This document shows, one piece after another, positions 24,984 through 64,000 of a stretch of DNA of 64,000 nt. Within the stretch, counting starts at the first letter, position 1, and the number at the start of each line of letters is the position of its first letter. The DNA comes from Chloracidobacterium validum (GTDB lineage: Bacteria > Acidobacteriota > Blastocatellia > Chloracidobacteriales > Chloracidobacteriaceae). The notes beneath the pieces are model-generated. The model was not told the origin of the DNA. It saw only the letters and a list, made by a program, of their open reading frames with translations, and searched no databases. The stretch covers positions 496,001 to 560,000 of the forward strand of contig NZ_CP072649.1 of assembly GCF_018304825.1 (NCBI RefSeq), given 5' to 3'. The translations under genes were made by a program, and so were the position numbers.

Positions 24984-27900
24984 ATGGGGCTTTACCACCC
25001 GACAAACAATGAAGCTGATAACGTCATAGGCAAGCCCACCCAACGCCAATACATCGTTACAACCAACCACCAGGAAACCACCAACGGTTGCCGTGACGAT
25101 CATAGCGGTCTGCTGTACCGTCCGCGCCCGGACATCATCTTTATTTCTGCTTCGGATACCGAACTAGAGACGCTCACCGCCGCTCAGTCGCAGCTTCCGC
25201 CCGGCTTTCCACGGTTGCAGGCGCAAAGCAGCGGCACCCTCCAGACGCCGACCGATGTGGCGGCTTTCGCCAAGGAGATTGCGCCGACCGCGCAGCTGGT
25301 GATCGTTCGTATCCTGGGTGGTCTGGCGTATTTCCGTGAAGGACTGACCCAGCTCCGTATCCTGTGTGACCAAACCGGCGCGGCCCTGGTTGCGCTACCG
25401 GGGGACAATCGCCCCGACGCCGAACTAGCCGGCTACACGACTGTTGACCCGGAGATTGCCGCGATCTTCCTTACTTATTGTGTCGCTGGCGGGGCAGCGA
25501 ACTATGCGCAGGGGCTGCGTTACCTAGCCGATGGCATCCTGGGCACGTCCTTTGGTTTTGCGCCACCGGTAGCCGTGCCAATGTATGGGTTGTACCACCC
25601 CGACGCGGCTGACCATGAAGCCACGGCCCGGCTGGATGTGGCGACCTTTGCGCGGACCTACTGGCGTGAAGCGGTCGGTCCGGTGGTGGGTCTCCTGTTT
25701 TACCGGGCTTACTGGCAAAGTAACGACCTTGCCGTCGTGGATGCCCTCGTCCGGGCGCTTGAAGCCCGTGGGTGCCGCCCGCTGCCGGTTTTTTGCTACA
25801 GCCTGCGGGACACACCGCCAGAGACGCTGCTTGCCTACCTTGGCCATCAGGCGCGGGCCGATGTCATCATCAGCCTGCTGAGTTATGCGTTGGCCGACAT
25901 CGTTCACGGGCAACGTTTGACACGGGCTGCCGGCCCTGGGCTTGATGTGCTCGCGCAACTGGGGGTTCCGGTCATTCAGGGCCTGACGGTACGCGCTTCA
26001 CAGGCCGAATGGGCGGCCAGTTCGAGCGGGCTGTCTCCGTTGGATGCCGCCATGAAAGTCGTCATGGCGGAGTTTGACGGGCGCATCATCTCAACCGTCA
26101 TTGGCGCACAGGAGCTGACGCCGGCCGGAGCAAGTCGCCAGGTGGCGATTCCGGCCCAGATCGAAGCCTTGGCCGCACTGACGGCCCGCTGGGGACGGCT
26201 GCGCCGGCTCCCCAATCGGGAAAAACGCCTAGCTATTGTCCTGACCAACTTTGCCAACCGCAACGGCCGGGTCGGCAGCGCCGTGGGCCTGGACACGCCG
26301 GCGTCGGTGCTACGCATTCTTCAGGCGCTGCGCGAGGAAGGCTATGTCGTGGGGGACCTGCCGCCAGATGGTGATGCGCTCATGGAAGAACTGCTGGCGC
26401 TCGGTGGCTACGAAGTCGAGTGGCTTTCGGAAGAGCAGGCCCGCCAGTCCGCCCATTATCGGGTAGCGGATTACACAGACTGGTTTGCCCGGCTTCCCGA
26501 ACCGGCGCAAGCGGCGCTGCGGGCGACGTGGGGGGAGCCACCGGGGCAGGTCATGACGGTCGGAGACCTTGGGTACATCCCGGCACGCCGTTACGGCAAT
26601 GTGGTGGTTCTCATCCAACCGCCACGTGGTTACGGAGAAAACCGACAGGCGCTATACCATAGTGGCGAACTCGCGCCTTCGCACCATTACTTGGCGGTGT
26701 ATCACTGGTTGCGCACCGTCTTTGGTGTGGATGCCGTCATTCACTGCGGCAAGCACGGGACGGTCGAATGGCTGCCGGGCAAGTCGCTGGGTTTGTCGGC
26801 GCAGTGTTATCCGCAACTTGTGCTCGGTGACACGCCAGTTTTTTATCCGTTTCTCGTCGGTGATCCGGGCGAAGGCCTCCAGGCGAAACGGCGCTGGCAT
26901 GCCGCGCTGGTCAGCCACCTGCCACCACCGATGACCCAAGCCGAGGTCGAACAGGAATGTGAACTGGCGCCGCTTCAGGCGCTGTTGACCGAGCTGGGGC
27001 GCGCCGACCAACTCGACCCGGAGAAACGGCCGCTCATTGTCGCGGCCATCTGGGAAGCCGTCGTTGCGGCAAATCTCCACCGCGATCTGGGCTACACGGC
27101 CCGGCCAGACGAAGACGAGTGGCCGGCGTTTCTGAAAAAGCTCGACGGGTACTTGTGCGAGTTGGGCGAAATCCAGATTCGGAACGGATTACATGTCTTT
27201 GGTGAAGCCCCGCAGGGCGAGCGGCTGGTGGACTTTCTCTGCGCCCTGGCGCGGCAGGGGACACCGGAGCGTCCGGGACTGCCGACAGCGCTGGCGCAGG
27301 ACCTGGGTTTACCGCCGAACTTGGACGACCTGCCGGCCGAAACGGCGTGGCTGCCGGAAGCTGTCCCGTCAGGGCTGGCGGCTTGCGACCCCTCAGCCAT
27401 CACCAGCGTTGGACGCCTGCGCCGGGCGCTGGATGCAGCGGTTCGTGAGCTGGTCGCCACGGCGGTGGCGCATGACTTCGATCTCACCCACCCCTTTGCT
27501 GCAAAGCTTGGCAGCGCAACCAGGACCGGGCTTGCGTACCTTGGGCAGGACATCCTCCCGCGGGTGCGACGCGCGCCGGACGAAATCCGTCACCTCCTGG
27601 ATGGCTTGGCCGGACGGGCCATTCCGCCTGGGCCGAGCGGCGCGCCGACCCGCGGTATGCCGGACATCCTCCCGACAGGGCGCAACATGTACGCGGTTGA
27701 CGTGCGGGCCGTTCCATCACCGTTTGCCTGGGAGGTCGGGCGGCAGTTGGGTGACGCGCTGGTGGCCAGCTACGTCGCGCAAAAGCAGGCGTTCCCGGAG
27801 GTGGTCGGGTTGACACTCTGGGGAACGTCCAACATGCGTACCCAGGGGGATGATGTGGCCCAGGTGTTGTGGCTGTTGGGGGTTGAGCCGTGCTGGCAGC

Positions 27901-28895
27901 CGGCCAGTCGGCGCGTCATAGGTCTGCGACGGCTCCCGCTGGAGACACTTCGGCGGCCGCGCATTGATGTCGTCCTGCGGGTTTCCGGTTTCTTCCGTGA
28001 TGCGTTCCCAAATGTCATCGCTCTGCTCGATGAGGCTGTCAGGCTCGCTGCGGCTGCGGATGAGCCGGATGAGTGGAACTATGTGCGCAAGCGCACACGT
28101 GTGGCTGAGGCCCACTACGTGGCAGCCGGCGACTCACCTGACGCGGCACACCGGCGAGCACGGTTTCGTATTTTCTCCAATCAGCCAGGCGTCTATGGGG
28201 TCGGGATTCTGGCTGCGTTGTCGGAGAAGGCGTGGACGGAGCGCGCTGATCTGGCCGACATCTACCTGCGCTGGAGTGGTTATGCCTACACGGCGGACGA
28301 GTACGGCACGCCGGCCGGCGAGGTATTTGCGCGCCAGTTGGCAGCCTGCGACGTTGCCGTTCAGAACCAGGACAACCGCGAGCATGACATTCTCGACAGT
28401 GACGATTACATGCAGTTTCACGGTGGCATGGCGGCGGCGATCGAGAATCTGCGCGGGCAGGCCCCGACGACGCTCTTTGGCGACACTTCAGACCCGGCGC
28501 GGCCACGGGTGCGGACACTACGGGAAGAACTGCGCCGGGTGATTCGGGCCCGGGTGACAAATCCCAAGTGGTTGCGGGCTATCCGGGAACATGGCTACAA
28601 GGGGGCGCTTGAAATGGCCGCCACGGTGGACTACCTGTTTGGGTATGCGGCGTTGACCGACTTGGTTGACGATTGGGTTTATGAGCGGGTGGCGGAGGCG
28701 TACCTTTTTGATGAGGAGATGGCTAGTTTTCTCGGCCAGAGCAATCCCTGGACCCAGCGCGACATCGCCGGCCGCCTGCTTGAAGCCGTGGAGCGTGGCC
28801 TGTGGCGACATCCGCCGGAGACGGTGACGACCCGCTTGCGGGACATCCAGGCCGGCGCTGAGGCGCGTATCATGGCCGCGGGGAAGCGAGGGTGA
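24984..28895 (+). CDS. cobN: Cobaltochelatase CobN subunit
   Basis: A 1303-aa large subunit of the CobNST cobalt chelatase, which inserts Co2+ into hydrogenobyrinate a,c-diamide in the aerobic B12 route, or of the related chelatases used with ChlID-like ATPases. Family signatures: IIFISASDTELETL near the start, QLVIVRILGGLAYFREG, VPMYGLYHPD, VDAVIHCGKHGTVEWLPGK, and the C-terminal YGTPAGEVF and DSDDYMQFHGG. The N-terminal reading is CobN-like rather than BchH-like. ATG 24984 has no strong ribosome site and the first 40 residues look non-homologous; a later start is possible but no in-frame ATG was found. A copy of the CTGATAAC motif is in this extension and another lies just upstream. No B12 riboswitch was seen. 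Confidence 0.9.
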   Translation: MGLYHPTNNEADNVIGKPTQRQYIVTTNHQETTNGCRDDHSGLLYRPRPDIIFISASDTELETLTAAQSQLPPGFPRLQAQSSGTLQTPTDVAAFAKEIAPTAQLVIVRILGGLAYFREGLTQLRILCDQTGAALVALPGDNRPDAELAGYTTVDPEIAAIFLTYCVAGGAANYAQGLRYLADGILGTSFGFAPPVAVPMYGLYHPDAADHEATARLDVATFARTYWREAVGPVVGLLFYRAYWQSNDLAVVDALVRALEARGCRPLPVFCYSLRDTPPETLLAYLGHQARADVIISLLSYALADIVHGQRLTRAAGPGLDVLAQLGVPVIQGLTVRASQAEWAASSSGLSPLDAAMKVVMAEFDGRIISTVIGAQELTPAGASRQVAIPAQIEALAALTARWGRLRRLPNREKRLAIVLTNFANRNGRVGSAVGLDTPASVLRILQALREEGYVVGDLPPDGDALMEELLALGGYEVEWLSEEQARQSAHYRVADYTDWFARLPEPAQAALRATWGEPPGQVMTVGDLGYIPARRYGNVVVLIQPPRGYGENRQALYHSGELAPSHHYLAVYHWLRTVFGVDAVIHCGKHGTVEWLPGKSLGLSAQCYPQLVLGDTPVFYPFLVGDPGEGLQAKRRWHAALVSHLPPPMTQAEVEQECELAPLQALLTELGRADQLDPEKRPLIVAAIWEAVVAANLHRDLGYTARPDEDEWPAFLKKLDGYLCELGEIQIRNGLHVFGEAPQGERLVDFLCALARQGTPERPGLPTALAQDLGLPPNLDDLPAETAWLPEAVPSGLAACDPSAITSVGRLRRALDAAVRELVATAVAHDFDLTHPFAAKLGSATRTGLAYLGQDILPRVRRAPDEIRHLLDGLAGRAIPPGPSGAPTRGMPDILPTGRNMYAVDVRAVPSPFAWEVGRQLGDALVASYVAQKQAFPEVVGLTLWGTSNMRTQGDDVAQVLWLLGVEPCWQPASRRVIGLRRLPLETLRRPRIDVVLRVSGFFRDAFPNVIALLDEAVRLAAAADEPDEWNYVRKRTRVAEAHYVAAGDSPDAAHRRARFRIFSNQPGVYGVGILAALSEKAWTERADLADIYLRWSGYAYTADEYGTPAGEVFARQLAACDVAVQNQDNREHDILDSDDYMQFHGGMAAAIENLRGQAPTTLFGDTSDPARPRVRTLREELRRVIRARVTNPKWLRAIREHGYKGALEMAATVDYLFGYAALTDLVDDWVYERVAEAYLFDEEMASFLGQSNPWTQRDIAGRLLEAVERGLWRHPPETVTTRLRDIQAGAEARIMAAGKRG

Positions 28896-29827
28896 TGAGC
28901 GGACGCATGGGGCGACGCAGGTGGCCAAGTGAGGTTATCTACCAACTGACGGTCGTTGGGCTGGCGACTGTGGTCGCCTGTCCGGCTGGTGGCTGCCAAG
29001 TTGGCGTCTCGCGCCCGTCCGGTGAGCCGGCGACGGCTACGACTCCGGCTGCCAAACGACAGCGGGTGGCATCACTTTCCATCGGGACCGATGAAATCCT
29101 GTGTGCGCTTGTGCCGCCGGAGCGGATCGTGGCGCTGTCGAAGTACGCCGCCGACCCTGAAGTAAGCTATGTGGCGGACGTTGCGCGCCAGGTCGGGGTT
29201 TTCGTGGAGCGTGAGCCGGAGCGAATGTTGTCACTGCGGGCCGATCTGGTCTTGCTGGCGCGCTACACCAGGGCCGAGCTGCGGCAGGCGGTTGAGCAAA
29301 CCGGGACGCCAACGCTGCTCGTCGAAGACTTCCGTTCGCTGGACGATATTGAAAACAATGTGCGTCGGATTGGGCGCGCGCTCGGCGAGGAAGCGCGGGC
29401 CGAGACGGTCATTGCCGCCATGCATGCTCGGTTGAAGGAAGCGCGCGCGGCACTGCGGCCGGACCGCGTTGGCTGGCGGGTACTGTATGTCATGCCGCCG
29501 CTCATGGTTGCCGGAAGGGATACGATGACCCACGTCAAGCTCACGTCCGCCGGGTTGCAAAACGCGGCATCTGACGTAGTCGGGCATACGGCGATCTCGG
29601 CCGAAGCGTTGCTGAAGCTCAACCCGGATGTGATCTTGGTCGCCACGGGCTTTGCTTCTGATGTAGGTTTCCGTGAACGTTTACTGTCCGACCCGCAGTT
29701 AGTGGCGCTGGAGGCGGTTCGCCGCAAGCGTGTCCTGGCGCTGCCGTCGCGGTCGCTACGGACGGTTTCACACCATACGGCCGATGCTGTCATGACGATT
29801 GTCGAGGCAGTGAATGCACTACCGTAA
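28895..29827 (+). CDS. BtuF-like ABC transporter substrate-binding protein
   Basis: A 310-aa periplasmic binding protein of the cobalamin/iron-siderophore class (BtuF/FepB fold, two lobes and a long helix). It has an N-terminal hydrophobic segment with a candidate lipobox VVAC, the family strand RVASLSIGTDEILCALVPPERIVALS, and KLNPDVILVATG in the second lobe. Its ATG shares a base with the cobN stop (TGATG), so translation is coupled and the ligand is probably a corrinoid or cobalt-related. No permease (BtuC) or ATPase (BtuD) gene is visible here, so it must pair with components elsewhere. A terminator-like hairpin follows. Confidence 0.8.
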   Translation: MSGRMGRRRWPSEVIYQLTVVGLATVVACPAGGCQVGVSRPSGEPATATTPAAKRQRVASLSIGTDEILCALVPPERIVALSKYAADPEVSYVADVARQVGVFVEREPERMLSLRADLVLLARYTRAELRQAVEQTGTPTLLVEDFRSLDDIENNVRRIGRALGEEARAETVIAAMHARLKEARAALRPDRVGWRVLYVMPPLMVAGRDTMTHVKLTSAGLQNAASDVVGHTAISAEALLKLNPDVILVATGFASDVGFRERLLSDPQLVALEAVRRKRVLALPSRSLRTVSHHTADAVMTIVEAVNALP

Positions 29828-29871: not shown

Positions 29872-30507
29872 ATGACCGAAGTTGCCGCTGTCACACCATC
29901 TGAGCCGTCCGAGTCATCCGACCGCCACCGTGAGCGGATGGCTCGCAAGAAAGCCATCCAGGATGAGCGGATTGCGCAGGCTACCCAGGAAAAAGGTCTC
30001 ATTATCGTTCACACCGGAGCCGGGAAGGGCAAAACCACGGCGGCGCTCGGCTTGATCTTTCGGGCGCTGGGCCACGGGCTGCGGGTCGGCGTCGTCCAGT
30101 TTACCAAGGGCGCGCGGACAAGTGGTGAAGCCGCGTTTGCCCGCGAGTTACCGGGACGGGTGGATTTCTTTGCCATGGGTGAGGGTTTTACCTGGGAAAC
30201 CCAGGATCGTGACCGTGACCGCGCCGCCGCCGAACGCGCTTGGTCCAAGGCCTGTGAACTGATGGCCGACCCCAGCTACCACTTGCTTGTGTTTGATGAA
30301 ATCAACATTGTGCTCCGCGACGAGACCCTGCCGGTGGCGGCGGTTCTCGCTGCGCTGCGCAGTAAGCCCGACCAACTTCACGTTGTCCTGACCGGCCGCA
30401 GCGCTCACCCGGACATCGTCGAACTGGCCGATCTCGTTACCGAAATGAAACTGGTCAAGCACCCCTTCCGGGCCGGCATCAAAGCCCAACGCGGCATTGA
30501 GTTTTGA
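29872..30507 (+). CDS. cobO: Cob(I)yrinic acid a,c-diamide adenosyltransferase
   Basis: A 211-aa ATP:corrinoid adenosyltransferase of the CobA/CobO/BtuR type. It attaches the 5'-deoxyadenosyl group of ATP to the reduced cobalt of corrinoids. The P-loop TGAGKGKTTAALG is at residues about 48-60, VGVVQFTKG follows, and YHLLVFDEINIVLRD is the Walker-B-like strand. VVLTGRSAHPDIVELADLVTEMK and the C-terminal HPFRAGIKAQRGIEF are family signatures. The N-terminal 40 residues are charged (DRHRERMARKKA) as is usual. It is 44 bases after the binding-protein gene and may be in the same operon despite the hairpin between them. Confidence 0.94.
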   Translation: MTEVAAVTPSEPSESSDRHRERMARKKAIQDERIAQATQEKGLIIVHTGAGKGKTTAALGLIFRALGHGLRVGVVQFTKGARTSGEAAFARELPGRVDFFAMGEGFTWETQDRDRDRAAAERAWSKACELMADPSYHLLVFDEINIVLRDETLPVAAVLAALRSKPDQLHVVLTGRSAHPDIVELADLVTEMKLVKHPFRAGIKAQRGIEF

Positions 30508-30594: not shown

Positions 30595-30990
30595 ATGTCT
30601 ACCCAGGCTCTGTTCGATTCGCGCGGTTCACACAAGCGACTTTTGTTGATCAATTCCAGTATTCTCACGGCTTACGGACTCTACCGGTATGAACCGTTGA
30701 CGGCCGAGGCTGCGCGTTGCCTTGTTGCAGAAGCGCAGCGCGCCGGCGATGACATTTGTTCTGCGGTTGGGCATCACTCGACGGCGGTCCTGATGAGCCG
30801 TCTGCTCGGCATTGTTGTTCCCGCCAGCCGGATTGCTGTCGAGCAAGCCGTTGGGGAACGGGCGATCGTATTCCGTCTGAACCGGCGCCCACCGGAAGGT
30901 GCTATTCTATCTGAGGCACAGTTGGAGGCCATCGGCTACGAACTTGGGCTGTTGACCCGCCTGGCCGACGAAGGAGCCGAGCCCGGTTAG
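30595..30990 (+). CDS. DUF1874 (AcrIII-1/Crn2-like) ring nuclease candidate
   Basis: A 131-aa protein matching the DUF1874 (STIV B116-like) family, in which viral AcrIII-1 and bacterial Crn2 rapidly cleave cyclic tetra-adenylate, the second messenger of type III CRISPR. SAVGHHST (H60) aligns with the SIGHDST motif that holds catalytic His47 of SIRV1 gp29; R79 and the RRPPEG stretch (R98, E101) match the conserved basic and acidic pocket positions. LLLINSSILTAYGL is the usual first strand. The ribosome site is weak, so starts at 30583, 30586 or 30595 are all possible. Its neighbours are cobalamin genes; the type III-B operon is about 20-27 kb away. Family assignment is firm; activity on cA4 is inference. 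Confidence 0.82.
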   Translation: MSTQALFDSRGSHKRLLLINSSILTAYGLYRYEPLTAEAARCLVAEAQRAGDDICSAVGHHSTAVLMSRLLGIVVPASRIAVEQAVGERAIVFRLNRRPPEGAILSEAQLEAIGYELGLLTRLADEGAEPG

Positions 30991-31063: not shown

Positions 31064-32188
31064 TTAGTTCTGTTTATTTTTCTTTTCTTCCTCTTTCCGA
31101 GCGCGTTCGGCCTCTTTTTTAGCCCGTTCGGCCTCCTTTTTGGTACGCTCAGCCTCCTTTTTGGCACGCTCATTCTCTGCTTTGTAGACGTGGCCGATGA
31201 TCTGGTACACCTCATCGGGTAATACCACCGGATAAAACTCATGGTAAGACTGGCGGACCGGCATCGTAACCTGGATTTTGTCGGGAAGCGGGGTTTTATC
31301 TGAAAAGGTTCGGATGACTTCACACCAGGCGAGCTTGTCTTCCACGTCAACGACTTTCAGAAAGCCGACCGGGACTTCAGTCATGCCGACCTTTTGTCCC
31401 GAGGCTGGGTCGTTGATAACCCGCCCGTCAGTGTAGACTAAGAACTCATGGTCTTTTCTGCAGCCTGAGATAGCGCCGATATTGATGGCTACTCGGCCAT
31501 CTTTGTTGGCCACGACGTATCCCGTCAGCGGCGACATTTGGTTGATCTTTTCGGCAAACTTCCGGGTGATGGCCGGCATAGCGGCCTGGTACATCGTGAG
31601 CGCTTGCGATTCGTCCAAATGGGGAAGAGACGGTTTAGCGGCCGATAACACTGATGCCACTCGGCTTGCTTTGCTTGACGGTATCAGGTCTAGGTCACCG
31701 GCCACGGTTGAGAGAATTGCGCCCACGGTCCGGCTCGTCGAAGTGTTGAGGCTGACTTCATTCCGAGAGATCATCGACAAGATGATGTTCCCGCTCGCCA
31801 CCTCAACGAGTTGGATATGTGCGCCAATGCGGGCTCGATCGGATACCGCGCCGCGGGCAGCACCGTAGTCGAGAATCTCCCCCAACACCAGGTAGTCAGC
31901 CGCGATGATTTTGCCAACTTTCTGAGCAGCTTTGGGGTCGACCAGCTCGGAGTTACTCAACTTGAGCTCACTCAGGACCTGGCCGAGTTGCTGTCGCTCG
32001 ACCAACTTGAGATTGCAGTAGGTGGCAAGAGCATTCGCCAGTTCAGATTCAAGTACGGCGACGATCTTGGCATCTACCGTCTGGCTGAACGGAGCAACGG
32101 CGACCCGCTTCGGTTCATTCGCAGGTTTTTGAGCAAGAGCCGTCTGGACGGCCACCATCAGACACAGCCAAACAAAAATCAGCCTCAT
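31064..32188 (-). CDS. CsgG-like exported protein with charged C-terminal repeats
   Basis: A 374-aa protein with a signal peptide (residues 1-19, LIFVWLCLMVAVQTALAQ). KRVAVAPFSQ, LEVELANALA-type helices and AAQKVGKIIAADYLVLGEIL are the signature of the CsgG/curli-assembly-like (TolB-N-like) fold. From about residue 205 a second domain with GYVVANKDGRVAINIGAISGC resembles the C-terminal beta domain of flagellar FlgT-like proteins. The last 45 residues repeat (K/R)KEAER and end KKNKQN, a charged helix. It is downstream, by 17 bases, of a paralogue with the same domains. Probably periplasmic or outer-membrane-associated; no curli gene is near, so the exported substrate is unknown. Confidence 0.75.
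   Translation of the reverse strand: MRLIFVWLCLMVAVQTALAQKPANEPKRVAVAPFSQTVDAKIVAVLESELANALATYCNLKLVERQQLGQVLSELKLSNSELVDPKAAQKVGKIIAADYLVLGEILDYGAARGAVSDRARIGAHIQLVEVASGNIILSMISRNEVSLNTSTSRTVGAILSTVAGDLDLIPSSKASRVASVLSAAKPSLPHLDESQALTMYQAAMPAITRKFAEKINQMSPLTGYVVANKDGRVAINIGAISGCRKDHEFLVYTDGRVINDPASGQKVGMTEVPVGFLKVVDVEDKLAWCEVIRTFSDKTPLPDKIQVTMPVRQSYHEFYPVVLPDEVYQIIGHVYKAENERAKKEAERTKKEAERAKKEAERARKEEEKKNKQN
31102..31172 (-). repeat. 21-nt tandem repeats in the CsgG-like gene
   Basis: About three copies of a 21-base unit encode (A/T)KKEAER heptads at the C-terminus. The units differ at a few positions. Such heptads form a single charged helix or coiled coil. Confidence 0.7.
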
Positions 32189-32205
32189 ATGAATACCTAC
32201 TGTAG

Positions 32206-33327
32206 CTATTTGTTTTTCTTTTTGGCAGCTTTTTTGAGATCTTCGAGCAAAGCGAGACCTCTGCGCTCAACCTCAATCAGAGACATTTGCGACTGGACAA
32301 CTGAAAATACTGGGGATGGGTCGTATTTGACTCCTCCTAACAGCACACTGGCCTGCGGGGAGTTGGTGGCGAAAATAAAACCGATGGAAAACTGTTCAAA
32401 TGCGCCGATGATGACAATCCGGGCAATCGGTTGTTTTTCGGTCGAGAGTATTTCCCCAGTAATTGGGTCTTTGATGGTGTTGCCATCGGCAAAGATCATA
32501 AACTCTTGCCCAGCCCGGACACCGTCTTTGTAGCTCAGGTTGATGTATACCTCCGGGCCGACGACGTTCACGACATATCCCTTGAGTGGATTGATGATAT
32601 TGATCTTATCAATGAACTTGCGCACGAGCTCTGCAGCGTTGGACCGGTAAGCTTGCAGCATTAATTCCTCGGCCAGAGACGATAATGCATATTCCTCAGG
32701 CAGCTTGAAGAGACCAGAAGTGGTGACAGAGAAGGTATCGGCAACTTTGACTGTGCCTGTTTCCACCTCAATAAGCTGGAATTGGGCCTTGATCTCAAGC
32801 TGGTCGGGCATAAACAGCGCGCCGGGGGTCAGATTCTTGCCCAAAAACCGGCCAACGACGATGTAGTTGGCTCCAACAAGCTTCCCGACTTTTTGGGCCG
32901 TGTCCGGATTCACAAAGTCAGTGTTACTGAGCTTCTGCTCGCCGAGGATTTCTCTCAACTGATTCCGGGCAACGACGACCTGAAACCGGCTGTAGTTGAC
33001 GAGGTTATCAGTTAGGGCAGTTTCCAACACTCGGTCGCCGAACCCGATTGGAGCAATGGCAATGCGGGGACGGGTATCTTTGGGAAGGCTATCGGTGTCC
33101 GCTGTATCTGCCGAAGCGGCAGAGGTTGCCTCGGCAGGCGGAGTTGCCGCAGCCGGGGCAGCGCTTGTTTCCGGGGCGCTGTCTGGTTTCGGAGTGACGG
33201 CCGGTGCCGGAGCCTTTCTTCGGGGTGCCTTTTTGCGACCTTGGGCATCCGACTCAGATGTGAACATCACTCCGCTCAACAAGAGCGTCAAGCCAAAGGT
33301 GAGAACTTTAGGCCATTGAGACAGCAT
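32206..33327 (-). CDS. CsgG-like exported protein, paralogue
   Basis: A 373-aa paralogue of the next gene. The signal peptide is at about residues 1-28 (LTFGLTLLLSGVMFTSESDA), then a Lys/Pro/Ala-rich linker to about 95. RIAIAPIGFG, DTAQKVGKLVGANYIVVGRFL and IEVETGTVKVADTF define the CsgG-like domain. GYVVNVVGPEVYINLSYKDGVRAGQEFMIF is the second domain shared with its partner, and the C-terminus ends KKAAKKKNK. The start ATG 33327 lacks a strong ribosome site; a longer frame reaches 33534 but its upstream part looks random and crosses the promoter at 33459. It forms a two-gene operon with the protein at 31064-32188. One of its codons pairs lies in a CTGATAAC motif copy (33004). Confidence 0.75.
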   Translation of the reverse strand: MLSQWPKVLTFGLTLLLSGVMFTSESDAQGRKKAPRRKAPAPAVTPKPDSAPETSAAPAAATPPAEATSAASADTADTDSLPKDTRPRIAIAPIGFGDRVLETALTDNLVNYSRFQVVVARNQLREILGEQKLSNTDFVNPDTAQKVGKLVGANYIVVGRFLGKNLTPGALFMPDQLEIKAQFQLIEVETGTVKVADTFSVTTSGLFKLPEEYALSSLAEELMLQAYRSNAAELVRKFIDKINIINPLKGYVVNVVGPEVYINLSYKDGVRAGQEFMIFADGNTIKDPITGEILSTEKQPIARIVIIGAFEQFSIGFIFATNSPQASVLLGGVKYDPSPVFSVVQSQMSLIEVERRGLALLEDLKKAAKKKNK

Positions 33328-33458
33328 AGCGTCATGATAAGCTTGCCTCTTGACATCGGGACACGGGGCAACCGTGCTCTCTTTCAGCGTGCCAAGAGGG
33401 AAAGTCCCGCAGAAGCGGATACACCCGTCCAACGTTTTTCGCAAAACGACCGAGCAAA

Positions 33459-33504
33459 AGTATATCACCATCATAACACAAAAAACAGACAGAATAACAC
33501 AAAA
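33459..33504 (-). promoter_or_regulatory. Extended -10 promoter and direct repeats of the CsgG-like operon
   Basis: On the minus strand TGATATACT (33459-33467) is an extended -10. Upstream, ATAACACAAAA (plus-strand reading) occurs at 33473-33483 and 33494-33504, exactly 21 bases apart, a spacing suited to a dimeric activator binding one DNA face. The implied 5' leader is about 130 bases. Confidence 0.45.
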
Positions 33505-33597
33505 GACAGGCGGAGTGCGCCAGAAAGGGTACAAAGCTTGCTCCTGACCTATTCGTGCAGCTTTGTGCGGTAAGCTCTGCTTTTTATCCAGGAAATT

Positions 33598-35120
33598 TTG
33601 ACGGTGTCACCCCCGAACAGCGAGACACTACCGCCACATCCAGTACACAATACCAACCACGAGTGCCCTCTGGCGCTCTTTCCGACCGACAAAGCCTTGG
33701 CTGATGCTGCGCCCGTGACAACCAGACCTGTGCCACGGCTGATCGTGGCCGCGCCGTCTAGTGGAAGCGGCAAGAGCACCGTTGCGACCGGACTCATGGC
33801 CGCGCTGGCAGCGACCCGGCAGGTGCAAGGCTTCAAGGTCGGCCCAGACTACCTTGACCCGATGTACCACACCGCCGCGACGGGCCGTCCCTCCCGCAAC
33901 CTCGACACCTGGATGCTGCCCCCGGAAACCGTCCGGCAAAACTTTTGGCGGGCGGCGGCCACAGCCGACATCAGTGTGATTGAAGGCGTCATGGGCCTCT
34001 TTGATGGAGCGGGCGCCGATCCGCTCGATGGCAGCACGGCGCAGATGGCGCACTTGCTTGAAGCCCCCGTGGTGCTGGTCATTGATTGCAGCCGGATGTC
34101 GGCCAGCGCGGCAGCCATTGCCCATGGCTTCCACACCTTTATGCCAAAGGTCAATATCGCCGGCGTGATCTGCAATCGCGTGGGGAGTGACCGCCACGCC
34201 ACTTGGTTGCGCGAAGCCATAGGCCGGTACGGGCTGCCGGTCCTGGGCTGTCTTCCCCACATGGCCGACCTCACCGTGCCGGAGCGGCATCTAGGTCTCT
34301 TCACCACGGCCGAGCGTCCGCAGGCGGTGCGGGCATTTCTGGCGGCGGCCCGCGCGGCCCTGGCGCGCCACATTGACTTGGATGCCGTGGTCACGTTAGC
34401 CGCGGCGGCGCCACTATGGCCGGTCAAGGCCGACTCATTGCCGGCTGCGGCCACACCGCCGAACATCCGAATTGCCGTTGCTCAGGACGAAGCCTTCTGC
34501 TTCTACTACGAAGATAACCTTGACGCGCTGCGCCAGTGCGGGGCCGAGATCGTCTTCTTCAGTCCGTTGCGCGCCGCGCCACCGGCGGATGTCGCCGGGC
34601 TGTACCTCGGCGGTGGATACCCAGAGCTGTATGCTGCCGCCCTGAGCGCCAACCGGGACTGCCGTCTAGCCCTCCAGTCCATGGCCGGGCAGGGAATGCC
34701 CATCTACGCCGAATGTGGCGGGCTGATGTACCTCACCGAAGCCATCCACCTGCCCGACGGAACGAGCTACCCGATGGTGGGTATCCTCCCCGGTCGGTGC
34801 CGCATGCAAGAGCGGTTGACGATGGGCTACCGCGAAGTCGAACTGGCCCAGGACGGGTTGCTCGGACGGGCCGGAGAGCGGTTGCGCGGCCACGAGTTTC
34901 ACTACTCGCAGTGGGAAAACGCCCCGACCGACCGACCGGCCTACCGCATCCTAGCGCGTCAGCCGGCAGAAATGCCCGCCTGGAAGGATTGGCGTCACAG
35001 AACGTCCACGCCAGCTACATCCATGTTCACTTTGGGCAGCGTCCTGGTCTGGCGCTGGCTTTGGTTGACCGCTGCCGGGCCTGGGCCGCATCAACCATGC
35101 GCTGCATCACTCGCCGATGA
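33598..35120 (+). CDS. cobB: Cobyrinate a,c-diamide synthase, frameshifted near the 3' end
   Basis: An amidase/synthase that amidates carboxylates a and c of (hydrogeno)cobyrinate using glutamine and ATP. P-loop [29 protein letters not shown] and the glutaminase nucleophile region [10 protein letters not shown] (Cys) are all in one frame, followed by HEFHYS. At about 34975-34995, after AEMPAW, homology moves to another frame, [22 protein letters not shown], which carries the family's last motif and ends at 35120. One base appears missing. Without correction the protein has an unrelated 150-residue tail and lacks the C-terminal His motif. TTG 33598 or GTG 33604 follows AGGAAA. The corrected stop overlaps the end of convergent yjbQ by 14 bases. 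Confidence 0.82.
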
Positions 35121-35529
35121 CTTTGACGAGCACCCGCTTGGGGCGCTGGCCGTCAAACTCGCCGTAGAAAATCTGCTCCCACGGTCCGAAATCAAGCCGC
35201 CCGTTGGTAATCGCCACGACGACCTCACGGCCCATGATCTGGCGCTTGAGATGCGCATCGGCGTTGTCTTCACCCGTGCGGTTGTGGTGGTAGTGGTTGG
35301 GGTCGGGGTTGAACGGCGCCAGCTTTTCCAGCCAAACGCTAAAGTCGTGGTGGAGTCCGGCTTCATCGTCGTTGATGAAAACACTCGACGTAATGTGCAT
35401 GCTGTTGCACAGGACAAGCCCTTCCTTGACACCGCTGCGCCGGACGACCGACTCGACCTGGGGCGTTATGTTGATAAAACCCACCCTGGAAGGTAGGTGA
35501 AAGGTGAGGTATTCCGTCAGTGATCTCAT
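35107..35529 (-). CDS. YjbQ/UPF0047 family protein
   Basis: A 140-aa protein of the UPF0047 family, with proposed thiamine-phosphate synthase activity for E. coli YjbQ. Signatures: [41 protein letters not shown] and [16 protein letters not shown], including the conserved His and Asp residues that bind a metal. The start is ATG 35529; TTG 35535 is also possible and neither has a strong ribosome site. It converges on cobB. There is no evidence for a functional link with cobalamin. Confidence 0.92.
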
Positions 35530-35555
35530 GTCCAACTGCCAAGTTTGCTCGTAGG

Positions 35556-40654: not shown

Positions 40655-41867
<1,213 letters not shown>

Positions 41868-41971
41868 AACGCCATCCGTCTCCGTCAGGTTCACCTAGCG
41901 GTGGTATTCAGTTCAGGTCGTTGCCAGCGGTCCACGGTCCCGGCTGAAGCCGCGCGTCCGTCCGCGGCCCG

Positions 41972-42718
41972 TTACCTGCGAGCCAGCGACAGCAATCCAC
42001 AGCCAAAACCCTTGGCGGAGCCAATGCCAAACTTCAGGGTTTCCACGAAGGCGTCGGGTTGGGTGACGGTCAACCGGCCCTCGAACAACACCGTATGGAT
42101 CGTGAGCGACTGGCCGGTCTTTTCAAGTTTCTTTGCTCCGCCATCCGCTTGAAAAGGGTCGGCTTCAGTCAGGGCCGGAGGCGCTTCACGCCACGCCGTC
42201 CAGTGGCCTTCGTCCACCATCCAAAGCTCACCCTTCGCGACCGAAAATCCGCCCCGGTTGCTTCCGCCAGGAGGATTTCCCTTCCGCACCAGCCACTTGA
42301 ATAACGGTTCCTCACCGTAAATACCGTACCGCTGCCCAGGTTTTCGGTTGCCCTCTGCCTTGTGACAACGGACGGTCGGATTGGCGCGCAATCTGAATCG
42401 GAATTGTTGACCGACGCGAAACTTCGGTTCGAGGGAGCGTTGTTCCACGTGGAGGCTGGCGCCGAGTTCGGCGCGCAGCGGTTCCCAGTTGGGCGCCGTC
42501 AGACTCTGGACGAGCACCGTCACCCACGGGCCGGTCGCGGGTCGCGCCGGTTCGACCCGAAAAAGAACGCGCCCGTTCCCAGCGTGGCGGCCTTCGGCCG
42601 GTCGGTCGCCGGGCGGGAACGCACGCATGATCGCGGCATGCGTATGGTACGGCGTTCTCAGCAACCGAAACACATGGCGATTGGTTGGGTTGAGCGTCAA
42701 TTGGCTGAGGTAGATCAT
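41972..42718 (-). CDS. cas6e: Cas6e (CasE/Cse3), pre-crRNA endonuclease
   Basis: A 248-aa RAMP protein that cuts the type I-E repeat and stays bound to the 3' hairpin of the crRNA in Cascade. PYHTHAAIMRAFPPGD contains the conserved catalytic-region His, and FGIGSAKGFGCGLLSLA is the glycine-rich C-terminal loop. Start ATG 42718 follows GGAGGA and overlaps the cas5e stop as ATGA, so the two are translationally coupled. Length fits the family. Confidence 0.95.
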   Translation of the reverse strand: MIYLSQLTLNPTNRHVFRLLRTPYHTHAAIMRAFPPGDRPAEGRHAGNGRVLFRVEPARPATGPWVTVLVQSLTAPNWEPLRAELGASLHVEQRSLEPKFRVGQQFRFRLRANPTVRCHKAEGNRKPGQRYGIYGEEPLFKWLVRKGNPPGGSNRGGFSVAKGELWMVDEGHWTAWREAPPALTEADPFQADGGAKKLEKTGQSLTIHTVLFEGRLTVTQPDAFVETLKFGIGSAKGFGCGLLSLARR

Positions 42719-44618: not shown

Positions 44619-44634
44619 GGCAGGTATCGTCCTT

Positions 44635-45183: not shown

Positions 45184-45217
45184 GGGCTCCGTATGGCAGT
45201 CGGTCTGGTGGGGACGG

Positions 45218-46807: not shown

Positions 46808-46898
46808 ACCTCTGGCTGGAGGCTACCGGTTACCGGCAGCCAGGAAAAATGGTTACGCTTCTTCAGGGCGTGATCATTAATTTTTGCAACATAAAGAT

Positions 46899-51022: not shown

Positions 51023-52096
51023 CTACTCGGTCGGGTCTAGATAACGCTTCACTTCTTGAAACCAGGGCTTATCCTTCGCCCCTTTCCACACCCGTGACTG
51101 GTCAACGATGGCTTCCGCAACCCGGCGCTTCCCTGGCACACCATCTGGCAAGTTCTGCCACCGCTTGGCAAAGTCTCCCAATCGGGCAGCAACTTCATTC
51201 GAGCGCAGTCCCTTGATCTGCGCCACCAACTGGTCAGCTTCGACCTCGGACGGATCAGGCGGCAGCACGGCCTTTGCCTCCAGCCGCAGGCGTCCGTACC
51301 CGGCCGCCGTCTTGGCCCCAACCCCCAGCTTGGCCAGCGCCGCGTCCAGCAAGTCAAATGCCGCATCCACCCAGTCCGGCGGCCCGGCCAAAGCCAGCAA
51401 AAACTTCCCGGTTGCCGTCAAGAACGGCACGACCGTCGGCGAGTCCCAGTCCGCCGGCCAATCCGCCCGTCCCTGGTAATAATCGGCGTGATGCACCGCC
51501 ATGACATCCGCCGCCAACGGATGCTCCGCGCTGCCCGGCACCCAGAGCGCGTCAAAAAAGATGACATACCCGGCTTCGGGGTCCGTGTCCTGCGCAGACC
51601 CAAACAGCGTTCGGTGGGCCGAACCCTGCGGGCACCGGGGCGTCAACTTGCGCCACGCCGTCTCCTCCACATACCGGTGCGCGTAGGCCGCGGCCAACCC
51701 CTTGAGCGCACTGCCGGGAATCACCGGCACGCCGTAGGTCCGGTGCAGCGAAATCGCCGTTTCACTGACACTGTCCGCGCCAAGCCCAACCACAAGCCGC
51801 CCCACGACCTCAGCTTCCCGCATCTGCGCCCCGAAAACGCTCAAGTGATGTTTCCAGCGCGCATACCACGCCGCATAAAGCGACGCCGGGCGCAGTCCAG
51901 CAACGGCCTTGACCAGCGCCGTCCGGGGCGGCTCGCCCGGCTGTACCGCCCCGGACTTCCCCACATCCGGCGCTTTCGCGTCGCCTTTGTCGGTAAGCTG
52001 AGCCAGCAAAAACCGCTCAAACCCCAACCCCGGATGGGCACAGTCACGCCATGCCACGTTGTTCAGCGCCGCCCGCCGCGCCCCGATCTCACCCAT
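51023..52096 (-). CDS. cmr6: Cmr6, type III-B complex subunit
   Basis: A 357-aa RAMP (Cas7-like) protein at the crRNA 3' end of the Cmr complex. GADSVSETAISLHRTYGVPVIPGSALKGLAAAYA carries the RAMP glycine-serine signature PGSALKG. GYVIFFDALWVPG and GVGAKTAAGYGRL, the glycine-rich loop, follow. ATG 52096 follows GGAGGAA and overlaps cmr5 by eight bases; a longer frame upstream lacks homology. Final gene of the operon; 113 bases further on is the WYL gene's end. Confidence 0.94.
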   Translation of the reverse strand: MGEIGARRAALNNVAWRDCAHPGLGFERFLLAQLTDKGDAKAPDVGKSGAVQPGEPPRTALVKAVAGLRPASLYAAWYARWKHHLSVFGAQMREAEVVGRLVVGLGADSVSETAISLHRTYGVPVIPGSALKGLAAAYAHRYVEETAWRKLTPRCPQGSAHRTLFGSAQDTDPEAGYVIFFDALWVPGSAEHPLAADVMAVHHADYYQGRADWPADWDSPTVVPFLTATGKFLLALAGPPDWVDAAFDLLDAALAKLGVGAKTAAGYGRLRLEAKAVLPPDPSEVEADQLVAQIKGLRSNEVAARLGDFAKRWQNLPDGVPGKRRVAEAIVDQSRVWKGAKDKPWFQEVKRYLDPTE

Positions 52097-52454
52097 CGGT
52101 TTCCTCCGTCCCACTCACCTTGAAGAGCGACTGGGCAAAACGCTTGTACCACACCAGCGCCGCCAGCGTCCGGCGCGTCAGACTTAGATAGACCATGACC
52201 GGCGCTTCCCGTACCGTTGCCCCCAAATGACTCCGCCCGCTAAAACCCAGTGTCTGCGCCAGATGCTCAAGCAGGAGTTCCCCCTCCCGCTTGCCGCGCG
52301 CTTCGACGAAAGCTACTGCCTGCGCCAACCCGGCCGTCCGAATGAGCACCGGCAGCTTGAGCGCCAGCGCGCCATACCGCGCACGGTCACCTTCCGGCAA
52401 CGCCGTCATCTGCTCGTACGCCCGCCGCGCATAGCGTTGGTCACGAGTCTGCAT
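52089..52454 (-). CDS. cmr5: Cmr5, type III-B small subunit
   Basis: A 121-aa helical small subunit (Cas11) that fills the Cmr complex interior next to the target RNA. DQRYARRAYEQMTALP at the N-terminus, ALALKLPVLIRTAGLAQAVAFVEARG and the C-terminal RRTLAALVWYKRFAQSLF match the family. ATG 52454 lies 49 bases after the end of cmr4. The stop overlaps the cmr6 start, so the two are coupled. Confidence 0.94.
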   Translation of the reverse strand: MQTRDQRYARRAYEQMTALPEGDRARYGALALKLPVLIRTAGLAQAVAFVEARGKREGELLLEHLAQTLGFSGRSHLGATVREAPVMVYLSLTRRTLAALVWYKRFAQSLFKVSGTEETDG

Positions 52455-52503
52455 GCTGATGCCCTCCTCTGGGATGTGGATTCACCGCCCGCCAGGCCTG
52501 CCT

Positions 52504-53397
52504 TCACAGTGTCGCGCCGCCATCGGCAACCCGCACTTGGCATAGCCCACGCCCAACCGAGGCCTTGCCTCCAAATTGCAGTGGCTTCTCAAGTAGCCTT
52601 GCCAGAAGTGTGAAGATGAAATCGGCTTCGAGTTCGGCTTTTTTCACCGGGACGGCAACCGCCAGGCCGTACAGGACGCTCTCGGCCGGAAGGGCTTCCT
52701 CGTACCACAGCGCCCCCTCCGCAACAGTCTTGGTTTCATCGTCCAACCGGATGCGGGCCGTCGTTTCCGTTGCCGTCTCGGCCAGAAAGTTAAAGACATC
52801 ATCCCCAACCACACAGAGCCGCTCACGCAACCATGCCTGCCAGTCGGCGCTCTCCGGAAAGAGCGCCCGACCGAGCCAGTCCGCCCAGGCGTTGACAGCC
52901 GCCTGGGGCTGGGCAACAAGGTCAAGGTCTTCCAGAATGACGGTTTTTTCCTGGGCGCACAGCTTGGTTGCCTCGGTTGTCCAGGCCTGGTCGCTGTTGG
53001 CCGGCAGGGATGGAATGAAACCCGGCAACGCACCCCCAACTGCCGTCAGGTCCCGCGCAAATCGCGCCAGCCCGTACGGCGAGGTAGTCCAGGCAAAGGT
53101 GCCGGCAAAACTGCGCACCGGCAACAACAGTAACCGCTGATCACTGATGTGGAGCGTGCCGGCATGGTCGCTCGCCTGCTCACTTTCCGGGCCAAACACC
53201 TGTGACACGTGGTGACGACCTTTGTCGTCCGCCATGCACGCTTCGCGCAGGACGCCTTTGACCGATGAGCCGGGCACATAGGGCAGTCCCGTCGCTTTTT
53301 CGCGCGCAATCGGCAAGTCAATCACCCCGACACCCTGCCCGGTGCCCGCATGGAGCGGCGAGAGCGCATGCATAAGCAACAATCGTGAAAAGTTCAT
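52504..53397 (-). CDS. cmr4: Cmr4, type III-B backbone and target RNase
   Basis: A 297-aa Cas7-like backbone subunit; its loop Asp cuts the target RNA every six bases. MHALSPLHAGTGQGVGVIDLPIAREKATGLPYVPGSSVKGVLRE is the family opening (key parts HAGTG, DLPI, PGSSVKG), with D28-type acidic residue in GVGVIDLPI. GKASVGRGLCQV is the C-terminal G-rich loop. ATG 53397 follows GGGAGGCGG and overlaps the cmr1 stop as ATGA. Confidence 0.95.
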   Translation of the reverse strand: MNFSRLLLMHALSPLHAGTGQGVGVIDLPIAREKATGLPYVPGSSVKGVLREACMADDKGRHHVSQVFGPESEQASDHAGTLHISDQRLLLLPVRSFAGTFAWTTSPYGLARFARDLTAVGGALPGFIPSLPANSDQAWTTEATKLCAQEKTVILEDLDLVAQPQAAVNAWADWLGRALFPESADWQAWLRERLCVVGDDVFNFLAETATETTARIRLDDETKTVAEGALWYEEALPAESVLYGLAVAVPVKKAELEADFIFTLLARLLEKPLQFGGKASVGRGLCQVRVADGGATL

Positions 53398-54644
53398 AGC
53401 CGCCTCCCTACGTCCTGGGCTACCTTGCCCGGCGTCACCCAATCCAGAAATGCCGCCAGCACATCGGTCTTCCCCTGCAGAGGGATCACCTTCCGAGCTT
53501 CATCCGGCGTCAAGTCGCGGTCACTCACCGCCCCCCGGTAGCCCTCTCCCTTCAAATTCAGTCCGCCAGGCAGCCGGGTCGGGGCAGACAGCACCAGCGC
53601 CAACCCGAAGGCGTCACCACGAAAGACAACCGGACGCAGCAGCAACGGACTCGCCAGCCGTTCCGTCTCCCGACCGACCAGCATCGCATCAGGCGTTTGG
53701 TCCTGGGGAAAGTGAAACACGATGGGCAACCCCAATCTGGCGCGTGGAAACGGCGCCGGCGCTGCGGCGGACTGGCGCGCGGCTTGCCGGATGACCTGCG
53801 GCTCGGGCCACACCGAAGCCCCGTAGTTGTCCGGCTGCCTGGTTCGCCTGTTTATCCGGTACTGCCGAAAGGTTTGTAGCTTGCCGATAAGGGCCTTCCA
53901 GGCTGTGATGGCGTTCTGGTGCGCTTCGGTAAGCCGCCAATCGGCATGGCCCGGCGCCAGTCTGGGGAATCCGTCCAACCGCCCGTTCACCACATACTGG
54001 CGCAGACCTTCCCGGATATGCCGCTCAACCTCATCCCGGCTGCGCAGGTTGGGCGCTCCCTGGCCAACCCGCCCGATGGCGCCAAATCCACGGCGCGTCC
54101 GTCCACCGATGCCACCAAAGGTTTCCCAGGCCCAAAAAGCAGCTTCAATCTCGTCTTGCCATCGCTCTGCCGCTTGCTTCGACAGCCGATAGTTGACCCG
54201 AAACTTGACCCCCATCCGCACCGGCTTGGATGCCCACCCAGGACGCTGTTCTTCGGTCTTCGGCAGCAACGGAAAGGCCGCATACGGAGCGATGTGTTCT
54301 GACGGCTCCGGTTTTTTTGCCTTGATGGTGAAGGCGGTTTCTTCCCACCCCCGCTCGAGCACCACCACCTCGATGGCAACCGCCGATGGGGTTTGCGTAT
54401 CGCCCCAGAGTTGAGCTTCGGCAGCGCGGAGCGCCTGCGCATCGGCGTACTGCGCGCCGCGGGTTGCCCGCCACCAAAAGCGCAGGTGTCCGCGCACAGA
54501 CGACGCCCGCACCACCGTGATGGGGTCGGCCTGCTGTGGCTCAACCCCACCGCCGAACAGTGGCGTCACCAACGCATAGTCACGGTGCTGTTCCACGACC
54601 CTGATGGGCGTCATTGCCGGTGGCCGGCTTGGCGTAGGTCGCAT
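53394..54644 (-). CDS. cmr1: Cmr1, type III-B subunit
   Basis: A 416-aa RAMP protein that caps the Cmr complex at the crRNA 3' side. DYALVTPLFGGGVEPQQADP and SSVRGHLRFWWRATRGAQY are the Cmr1 signature; WAWETFGGIGGRTRRGFGAI is the glycine-rich loop. The start is ATG 54644 behind GGAG; GTG 54653 three codons up is possible. The C-terminal 200 residues are variable. It follows cmr3 after 15 bases, and overlaps cmr4. Confidence 0.95.
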   Translation of the reverse strand: MRPTPSRPPAMTPIRVVEQHRDYALVTPLFGGGVEPQQADPITVVRASSVRGHLRFWWRATRGAQYADAQALRAAEAQLWGDTQTPSAVAIEVVVLERGWEETAFTIKAKKPEPSEHIAPYAAFPLLPKTEEQRPGWASKPVRMGVKFRVNYRLSKQAAERWQDEIEAAFWAWETFGGIGGRTRRGFGAIGRVGQGAPNLRSRDEVERHIREGLRQYVVNGRLDGFPRLAPGHADWRLTEAHQNAITAWKALIGKLQTFRQYRINRRTRQPDNYGASVWPEPQVIRQAARQSAAAPAPFPRARLGLPIVFHFPQDQTPDAMLVGRETERLASPLLLRPVVFRGDAFGLALVLSAPTRLPGGLNLKGEGYRGAVSDRDLTPDEARKVIPLQGKTDVLAAFLDWVTPGKVAQDVGRRL

Positions 54645-54659
54645 GGTTTCCACTCCACA

Positions 54660-55829
54660 TCACTGCAAACTGCCCAACTGTCCGTCCCACGCTCCAACCA
54701 GAGCGCAGCCAAAGCCGTCCCGGCGGGACTGGTCATCGTCGCTGACCGGCTGGAGCCAAACCCGGTTCAGCCAGGCCGCGCGCGCGTCTTGACTGCCCTC
54801 GAGCTTGAGAAAGTACACGCTCCCGGCCGGGGCCAGCCGCCGGGTCGGTTTGGCCTGATTGGTTTCAAAGTCCCAGCCTGAAACCACCATGGCCCGCCCA
54901 ACGGCAGCCCCCACCAGGGTGACGGTCAGCCCGGACACGCCGGCCGCCAACGTCTCGGCGCCAGGTCGCCACCCGGCCGTGAAGTAACCCGGTGTCGCCA
55001 GGATGAGCCGACATGCTCCCTGCCGGCACACGGCCTGGTGGACGGCGGCAGGGCACGGCGGAAGGGCGGACTTCGACGGCCGCCACATGACCAGTCGCCG
55101 TTCACCACCCAGCGGGGCCAGTCCGGGCTGAAGTGGCGCGTCGTCCGCAACCCAGACGGCCAGCGCCAGTCGCCGGGGCGGCTCCCCGTCCACCCGACAG
55201 GTAAAAGCCAAGCCGCTTGTCTGAAACAACCGACCGTCTTCGGCCGTCAACGTGGCCGGGTCAAGAGCGACGTGCGTGCGCTGTTCGAGCACCGGCCCGC
55301 CGTGGCCAAGCGCCTTGGCTGTGGTTGTCCAGTCGTCGGAGCGCGTCAGCCAGCGTTCAACCACCGACCCGTACCAGTACGCCGGGGCATCGCCGGCCGG
55401 TTTGGCCTTGACCCGCACCGCCAGGCCAACCGGGCACAGCCCATCCACCGGCAGGCCGACCGTGACGCCTGGCGGCAACGCCAACGGCACCAGGCGCTTG
55501 ATGTCAAAATCGCCGGCCGCCAGGCCGCGCAGGACCAGCGCATCGAGCGGCGCCGGCCACAGCCACTGCTGGATAGCGTCTGATGCGTCCAGTTCGACCA
55601 AAAACGGCCCGCGTATGGACAGCGCCCGTGCCTCCGCCGGTGTTCGGCCAAAGGCAGATGGGTCAAAGACCCCCTGGGCGGTGCGGAAAGCGCGGGTTCG
55701 GACGCCTCCAGCGATGGTCGAGGGAAACGGAAACGGCAGCGACGTCGCCCGCGCGCCACCCCAGGCCCCAAACGGACGCCCATCGCGGAAGATGATTGGA
55801 TCGCGTGGCTCAATCATCCACAGCGCCAT
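54660..55829 (-). CDS. cmr3: Cmr3, type III-B Cas5-like subunit
   Basis: A 389-aa Cas5-group RAMP protein that holds the crRNA 5' handle. MIEPRDPIIFRDGRPFGAWGGARATSLPFPFPSTIAGGVRTRA is the hallmark opening (PRDPIIFRDGRPF, FPSTIAGGVR). GLAFTCRVDGEP and FETNQAKPTRRLAPAGSVYFLKLEG follow, with GWDF in the strand before. ATG 55829 overlaps the cas10 stop by 20 bases. Confidence 0.95.
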   Translation of the reverse strand: MALWMIEPRDPIIFRDGRPFGAWGGARATSLPFPFPSTIAGGVRTRAFRTAQGVFDPSAFGRTPAEARALSIRGPFLVELDASDAIQQWLWPAPLDALVLRGLAAGDFDIKRLVPLALPPGVTVGLPVDGLCPVGLAVRVKAKPAGDAPAYWYGSVVERWLTRSDDWTTTAKALGHGGPVLEQRTHVALDPATLTAEDGRLFQTSGLAFTCRVDGEPPRRLALAVWVADDAPLQPGLAPLGGERRLVMWRPSKSALPPCPAAVHQAVCRQGACRLILATPGYFTAGWRPGAETLAAGVSGLTVTLVGAAVGRAMVVSGWDFETNQAKPTRRLAPAGSVYFLKLEGSQDARAAWLNRVWLQPVSDDDQSRRDGFGCALVGAWDGQLGSLQ

Positions 55830-62943: not shown

Positions 62944-64000
62944 TCAGGGCTGCATCAACGTGTCAAATAGCGCATAGCCCGACTTGACAATCTCATCAAA
63001 GCGCGCCTGCGCGGCTTTTGGATTCAAGGCATCAAGTGGAGCCTTTAGATCCTGGTCCTCGGGATCTGTGCCGTGCACAACGGCATTGCGGAGATTGGCG
63101 ATGTTCTTGAAGTGAGAAGCGTAGTCTGACCCAAGCTCTTCCTTGATCTTTTTGCCGGCCTCCCGGCGCGAATCGTAGGAGAGCGGCTCGTCGATTTCAA
63201 ACTTCTGGCAGCCCGCCACACAAAGCGCCTCATAGAGCAGGACGATGCCCTTGAGCCGCTGGTTGGCCGCAAACGCCGTCTCTGCCTTGCGGCGCAGCCG
63301 TTGCGCCAAGGTATCTCCGGCAATCCAACTCAAAGGTTCGTCCAGCGCCTCGGCCAACGCGCGGTCAAGCGCCGCCACTTCACCCACGGCGCTCAACTGC
63401 GCTCTAGCTTTATTCACAGCCTTCTTCGTCACCCGATTGACGTTATCGGCATAGGCTGCCTGTTCGAGCTTGTCGAGCAAATCGGCTTCTGGCGCAGCCA
63501 ACCGCCCAAAGACATTGACCAGTTGGCCGAAATCATCGGTGTAGCGATAGGTCGCCAGAGCTTCGGTCACATCGAGCAAGTCTTGGCATAGCGGCAGTTC
63601 AATGACTTGGTTACCAAACTCAAACGCGCCGTAGTACATCTCCACGCTCGCCAGCCGCCGAAACCAGCGGAGTGTCGTTGCCATAAACGCCATGAGGACT
63701 GGCTGGTGACGCAAGCCGTGGGTAATGTCCAACGTCAGGTCGTCGCCCACCCCAACGTTGCGGTAAAGGGCTTTCCAAACGCGCATCTGTGAATCGCGGT
63801 CGTTTGCCGGGCCGACCAGCTCGCAAACCACCTTTACCCGACTTGTCTGGCTCAACGCCGCAGACCATTCGTCAAGCAGTGGCTGCGTCATGTCTTCTTG
63901 ACGCACGGCTCGGCTGACAGCGTCCCAAATCTTTTCAATCGAGCTGATTTGATCGTCAGGGACTAGCTCTACCAACGCATCCCAGATGGATGCAGCCGTT
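62944..64000 (-). CDS. CARF-HEPN (Csx1/DxTHG family) CRISPR RNase, 5' end outside window
   Basis: At least 351 aa, open through the window edge, so the N-terminus is missing. LTLDITHGLRHQPVLMAFM is the DxTHG motif that marks TIGR02221/Csx1-like CARF proteins, which bind cyclic oligoadenylate. A helical C-terminal half with NLRNAVVHGTDP supplies the R-x4-H of the HEPN RNase site. It is convergent with cas2 and 79 bases from it. It is the likely effector of the HD-less Cas10 in this island; cA4 is the common ligand for the family but is not proven here. Confidence 0.88.
   Translation of the reverse strand, partial: TAASIWDALVELVPDDQISSIEKIWDAVSRAVRQEDMTQPLLDEWSAALSQTSRVKVVCELVGPANDRDSQMRVWKALYRNVGVGDDLTLDITHGLRHQPVLMAFMATTLRWFRRLASVEMYYGAFEFGNQVIELPLCQDLLDVTEALATYRYTDDFGQLVNVFGRLAAPEADLLDKLEQAAYADNVNRVTKKAVNKARAQLSAVGEVAALDRALAEALDEPLSWIAGDTLAQRLRRKAETAFAANQRLKGIVLLYEALCVAGCQKFEIDEPLSYDSRREAGKKIKEELGSDYASHFKNIANLRNAVVHGTDPEDQDLKAPLDALNPKAAQARFDEIVKSGYALFDTLMQP

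Follow-up and report, generated by a model that had tools for sequence, protein, structure and literature searches.

Chromosome 2 of the hot-spring bacterium Chloracidobacterium validum carries a gene for a 131-residue protein of the DUF1874 family, most probably (at about 87% by our estimate) a cellular ring nuclease of the Crn2 type that degrades the cyclic tetra-adenylate (cA4) produced by two type III-B systems. Ring nucleases decide the outcome of a type III response, that is, whether the cell recovers or dies. The family itself (Crn2/AcrIII-1) is already characterised biochemically; what is unusual here is the placement of the gene, a fixed core locus that is unlinked from cas10 and, in two species of the genus, lies on the other chromosome. 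We regard the ring-nuclease reading as the best one because of that known biochemistry: both Crn2 (PMC7293037) and AcrIII-1 (PMC7213978) cleave cA4 using an equivalent histidine.

The genome of strain BV2-C consists of two chromosomes (2,659,040 and 1,000,103 bp; PMC12816986) and contains a single PF08960 gene. The window, that is, the whole stretch of 64,000 nucleotides analysed, includes this gene, its cobalamin neighbours and one of the two type III-B loci (Table 1).

Table 1. Positions in the window of the predicted ring nuclease gene, its key residues and the associated loci
Feature	Position (strand)	Description
crn2-like gene	30595..30990 (+); ATG 30595, stop 30990	131-aa DUF1874/STIV_B116-like predicted cA4 ring nuclease; PF08960
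SAVGHHST motif	30760..30783 (+)	codon 30772-30774 is the predicted catalytic His, H60 (AFV3-109 His45, AcrIII-1 His47)
Arg79 codon	30829..30831 (+)	invariant pocket residue, AFV3-109 Arg64
R-P-P-E-G	30886..30900 (+)	Arg98 and Glu101, AFV3-109 Arg83/Glu86
cobN-like gene (CobN/Mg-chelatase)	24984..28895 (+)	PF02514; upstream neighbour, order conserved in genus
btuF-like periplasmic binding protein	28892..29827 (+)	PF01497
cobO/btuR cob(I)alamin adenosyltransferase	29872..30507 (+)	PF02572, E 5e-65; directly upstream, 87 bp gap
two CsgG/LpoB-like genes	31064..33534 (-)	between ring nuclease gene and cobB in the window
cobB/cbiA-like gene	33598..35000 (+)	PF07685, PF01656; open frame continues to 35496
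cmr6, cmr5, cmr4, cmr1, cmr3	51023..55829 (-)	III-B complex
Cas10/Cmr2, 601 aa	55810..57615 (-)	GGDD present, no HD domain found; predicted cA4 source
Csx1-type CARF-HEPN effector	62944..64000 (-)	cut by window end; 420-aa open frame in genome; predicted cA4 target

Family, fold and active-site residues

The first-pass annotation had proposed a DUF1874 open reading frame at this place, and its coordinates were right: the protein matches the whole Pfam profile PF08960 (positions 2-101 of 101) with an E-value of 1.5e-22 and 80.1 bits, above the curated cut-off of 26. PHROG 5063 also matches it (E 1.6e-16), and phmmer against the PDB returned AFV3-109 (2j6b; E 1.9e-14), STIV B116 and SIRV1 ORF114, with the AcrIII-1 structure 6scf as a weak match (E 0.07). 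The AlphaFold2 monomer model (pLDDT 89.1) was significantly matched by Foldseek to DUF1874 structures only: 16 PDB chains at E <0.001, including Marinitoga Csx1-Crn2 with bound cA4. Superposed on 2j6b (E 3e-10, TMt 0.85), the model has the beta-sheet and three-helix fold of AFV3-109.

H60, R79 and the segment RRPPEG, which had been assigned to the catalytic and pocket places of AcrIII-1, hold up in alignment. H60, R79, R98 and E101 pair, without gaps between them, with His45, Arg64, Arg83 and Glu86 of AFV3-109, residues that are conserved and line the dimer cavity (PMC1796864); a gapless alignment to 6scf likewise places H60, R98 and E101 at positions 47, 85 and 88 of SIRV1 gp29, if a 24-residue tag is assumed from the difference between the 138-residue chain and the 114-residue protein. 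Across 45 aligned homologues N20, S56, A57, G59, H60, T63, R79 and R98 show no variation and E101 almost none, and the copy in the window and its four Chloracidobacterium orthologues all keep H60, R79, R98 and E101. The histidine is needed in both characterised relatives: SIRV1 gp29 (AcrIII-1) is inactive as H47A (PMC7213978) and Csx1-Crn2 as H495A (PMC7293037). Profile search, homology to solved structures and fold confirm that the protein belongs to DUF1874 and has the catalytic residue set.

Inheritance at the cobO-cobB locus

The neighbours are, by Pfam, cobN-, btuF-, cobO- and cobB-type genes, as expected from the cobalamin region first described. Five of the seven genus members carry the DUF1874 gene, in every case between cobO and cobB and on the same strand. 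In the remaining four carriers cobB is the next same-strand gene, after a gap of 6-122 bp (6 bp in genomes G001 and G005), and no CsgG/LpoB-like homologues were found between the two. The gene is apparently co-transcribed with the B12-salvage genes, judging by spacing and strand; no sigma-70 promoter was found at it. The cobB open frame of the window (33598-35496) is about 160 codons longer than its orthologues and runs antisense to a UPF0047 gene (35107-35535), possibly through a lost stop or a frame error. In another part of the window, at positions 14001-16000, the GC skew reaches 0.35 locally, much higher than in the remainder, across a 755-codon open frame.

The orthologues have diverged to an extent comparable with cobB (61-97% identity, against 67-98% for cobB). 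Between G004 and G006 the gene has a dN of 0.10 and a dS of 1.8, which is near saturation, giving a dN/dS of about 0.06; the gene is under purifying selection. Elsewhere the BV2-C genome has undergone heavy rearrangement (PMC8245765). In a tree of 83 rows and 112 columns the sequences of the genus form one clade (support 100/99), which is not placed inside a viral clade, although its attachment among viral and CRISPR-locus sequences is not settled. The two genus members that have no DUF1874 gene (G002 and G003) have no Cas10 either; their divergence is too great for a clean test of loss, the identity of cobO being just 45% and none of the neighbours matching. We conclude that the gene is a vertically inherited, fixed locus of the core genome.

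This inheritance bears on the two origins that the first-pass annotation had left side by side, a host regulator or an anti-CRISPR left by a phage. An AcrIII-1 of a phage or archaeal virus that landed in the genome, and serves or once served the invader, would fit the fact that viruses (36 phage genomes) carry DUF1874 more often than type III loci do (seven loci; PMC12409355), the 64 relatives among 85 IMG/VR matches to the pattern SAxGHxSTA, and a best viral relative that is 52-54% identical. As an account of the present-day gene we consider it very unlikely: the gene is single-copy, shares one locus in five species and is monophyletic and selectively maintained, and the tree gives it no placement within a viral clade. 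The neighbourhood, with its cobalamin and CsgG-type genes, also lacks clear marks of a virus, provirus or mobile element; seven of eight neighbours have no PHROG match, the UPF0047 gene has a marginal one (E 5.5e-4), and no tRNA was found in the window. A remote viral origin is possible. Searches of viral DUF1874 loci with cas seeds gave no match. The host-regulator alternative is the one supported, by the cobO-cobB position in five species, by purifying selection, and by the association with Cas10 and the homologues in type III loci of other Acidobacteriota that are described below.

Type III systems and the proposed role

An HD-less Cas10 with GGDD and a CARF-HEPN effector had been reported from the window, and both are there; the same III-B locus also holds cas6, a CRISPR array and cas1. 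Chromosome 1 holds another III-B set (G000, 2177911-2186000; L034:4909-12735), which has a CARF-HEPN effector of its own. The best PADLOC model for that effector is a CARF-HEPN-'Csx16' fusion (9e-111) and its only PDB matches are Marinitoga Csx1-Crn2 chains; a relative of this effector therefore occurs elsewhere in natural fusion with a DUF1874 domain. Since its two III-B loci encode Cas10 of the GGDD type and effectors of the Csx1 type, the genome has a cOA-making system with a CARF effector. Searches of the genome for Csx3 and Csx16 gave no matches, but their controls were silent too.

Several other features of the region were observed. Inspection by eye points to a probable type I-E Cascade/cas3 cluster (40956-49640) in the interval that separates the ring nuclease gene from the III-B locus. 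The CRISPR array (60332-60464 and 60798-61046) contains two units that do not differ over 55 nt, and it ends with three repeat-spacer units that share 84-86% of 91 nt, including the spacer, and whose repeats are decaying. Upstream of cas1 (61266-61378), a 38-nt sequence occurs twice, 75 bp apart and 97% identical.

The DUF1874 gene lies about 21 kb from cas10 in the window, outside a 6-kb limit of linkage, and G001 and G005 have the ring nuclease gene on chromosome 2 but all their Cas10 matches on chromosome 1; the functional link to Cas10 therefore rests on co-occurrence. A search of related genomes, suggested at the outset as a check, found the DUF1874 gene in 6 of 396 Acidobacteriota genomes, all six with Cas10 above the cut-off, compared with 82 of the 396 overall (hypergeometric p 7e-5, or 0.019 when counted by the four carrier genera, kinship being ignored). 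Homologues in four members of the class (G021, G025, G027 and G030) lie within about 10 kb of cas10, and in Pyrinomonas (G027) the homologue directly follows a CARF effector. The frame near the type III locus of G021 (L021, about 7983-8243; region G021:C6:171027) spans only about 80-88 aa and has no SAxGHxxT segment, hence no catalytic histidine; from its sequence it is probably a naturally inactivated copy.

More broadly, the pattern SA[IV]GH[PAE]STA occurred at 22 loci in 84,980 species genomes, a partial sample. Several of these loci carry cas10 or other type III genes (in Acidobacteria, Pyrinomonas, Tepidimonas, Tepidicella, Thioploca and a Burkholderiaceae MAG), and two Lokiarchaeota loci carry cas1. 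A contig binned as Parcubacteria (L109, RFKD01000004.1) has a type III locus with 90-94% protein identity to that of Pyrinomonas, and is probably either misbinned or the product of recent transfer. Within Chloracidobacterium the CARF effector beside Cas10 varies from species to species, being CARF2-HEPN in the window but CARF7-DUF2103/RelE-like in G001 and CARF1-HEPN in G006 (loci outside the window: L133:7059-8204, L134:15179-16327, L138:15129-16481), while the ring nuclease between cobO and cobB is constant.

We propose that the Cas10 proteins of both type III-B systems would respond to RNA recognition by making cA4, which would activate the Csx1-type CARF-HEPN ribonucleases; that a DUF1874 homodimer would hold cA4 in its cradle; and that His60, amid Arg79, Arg98 and Glu101, would cut the ring to A2>P/A2P independently of metal. 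The loss of cA4 would then switch Csx1 off and allow the cell to recover, or would damp accidental signalling. Expressed from the cobalamin-salvage operon, the protein may act in trans as a regulator, for whichever type III system and CARF effector is present. A separate enzyme need not be essential, since some Csx1 and CARF effectors are ring nucleases in their own right. Among the relatives, the Marinitoga Crn2 domain has a kcat of about 9 per min (PMC7293037), and AcrIII-1 reaches 5.4 per min at 50 C (PMC7213978).

It is not obvious why an immune off-switch should be expressed together with B12 genes, and this counts against the ring-nuclease reading. One speculative and rather doubtful idea is that a core ring nuclease, expressed with the B12-salvage operon, might form a standing cA4 sink that lets unrelated type III systems and CARF effectors come and go, its level perhaps tied to cobalamin or redox status. 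The neighbourhood could also be taken to mean that the protein serves cobalamin salvage, its CRISPR link lost and its DUF1874 fold binding a corrinoid precursor or a nucleotide; the cobO-cobB placement is constant in the genus, down to the 6-bp cobB spacing of two species. We give this very little credence: the cA4-pocket residues are all retained, in other Acidobacteriota the homologues are close to cas genes and, where examined, not to cob genes, family members such as G007 and G009 have cobO without DUF1874, and no Rfam match to a cobalamin riboswitch was found in the window or in four relatives. Least probable of all is a degenerate copy or cA4-binding sponge that does not catalyse, for which the decayed G021 relative and the cyclic-nucleotide sponges cited in PMC12409355 offer precedents, since the window copy and its four orthologues have the residue set intact.

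Comparison with known systems

A Crn2-type enzyme at this position would affect how ring nucleases are counted. In a recent census ring nucleases were sought within 6 kb of Cas10 and seven Crn2 loci were counted (PMC12409355); the limit of about 6 kb is a convention of that census, not a property of the enzyme, and because of it the C. validum gene would be missed. The Cas10 loci and CARF effectors vary between species, but the predicted Crn2 stays at one remote place, and such censuses would therefore miss some unlinked off-switches; some type III loci scored as lacking a ring nuclease may be served in trans. The gene also offers a bacterial counterpart of a viral anti-CRISPR, apparently domesticated, in a culturable genus.

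One database label needed to be set aside. The PADLOC model PDLC01147, labelled Csx16, matches the protein (2.6e-25), and Csx16 (VVA1548, PF09652) and DUF1874 proteins both degrade cA4 (PMC12409355). Sequence and fold are those of DUF1874, and a Pfam scan gave no match of the protein to PF09652 at E up to 1, so we reject a Csx16 identity; the label looks like a matter of naming.

Among bacterial relatives, B. subtilis YddF shares the PF08960 family, but yddF belongs to an integrase-led mobile gene cluster (PMC1796864) and the C. validum gene apparently does not. AcrIII-1 (SIRV1 gp29, 6scf), AFV3-109 and STIV B116 share the fold (TM 0.64-0.85), the dimer-cavity residues and the invariant SAxGHxxT; they are viral, whereas the C. 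validum gene is chromosomal, vertically inherited and without clear phage neighbours. Marinitoga Csx1-Crn2 is similar in its DUF1874 fold, catalytic histidine and Arg/Glu pocket, and its host too is a bacterial cell that has both type III-B and Csx1. In contrast to that fusion, the C. validum protein stands alone, outside the type III locus, at a cobO-cobB position that is fixed in five Chloracidobacterium species.
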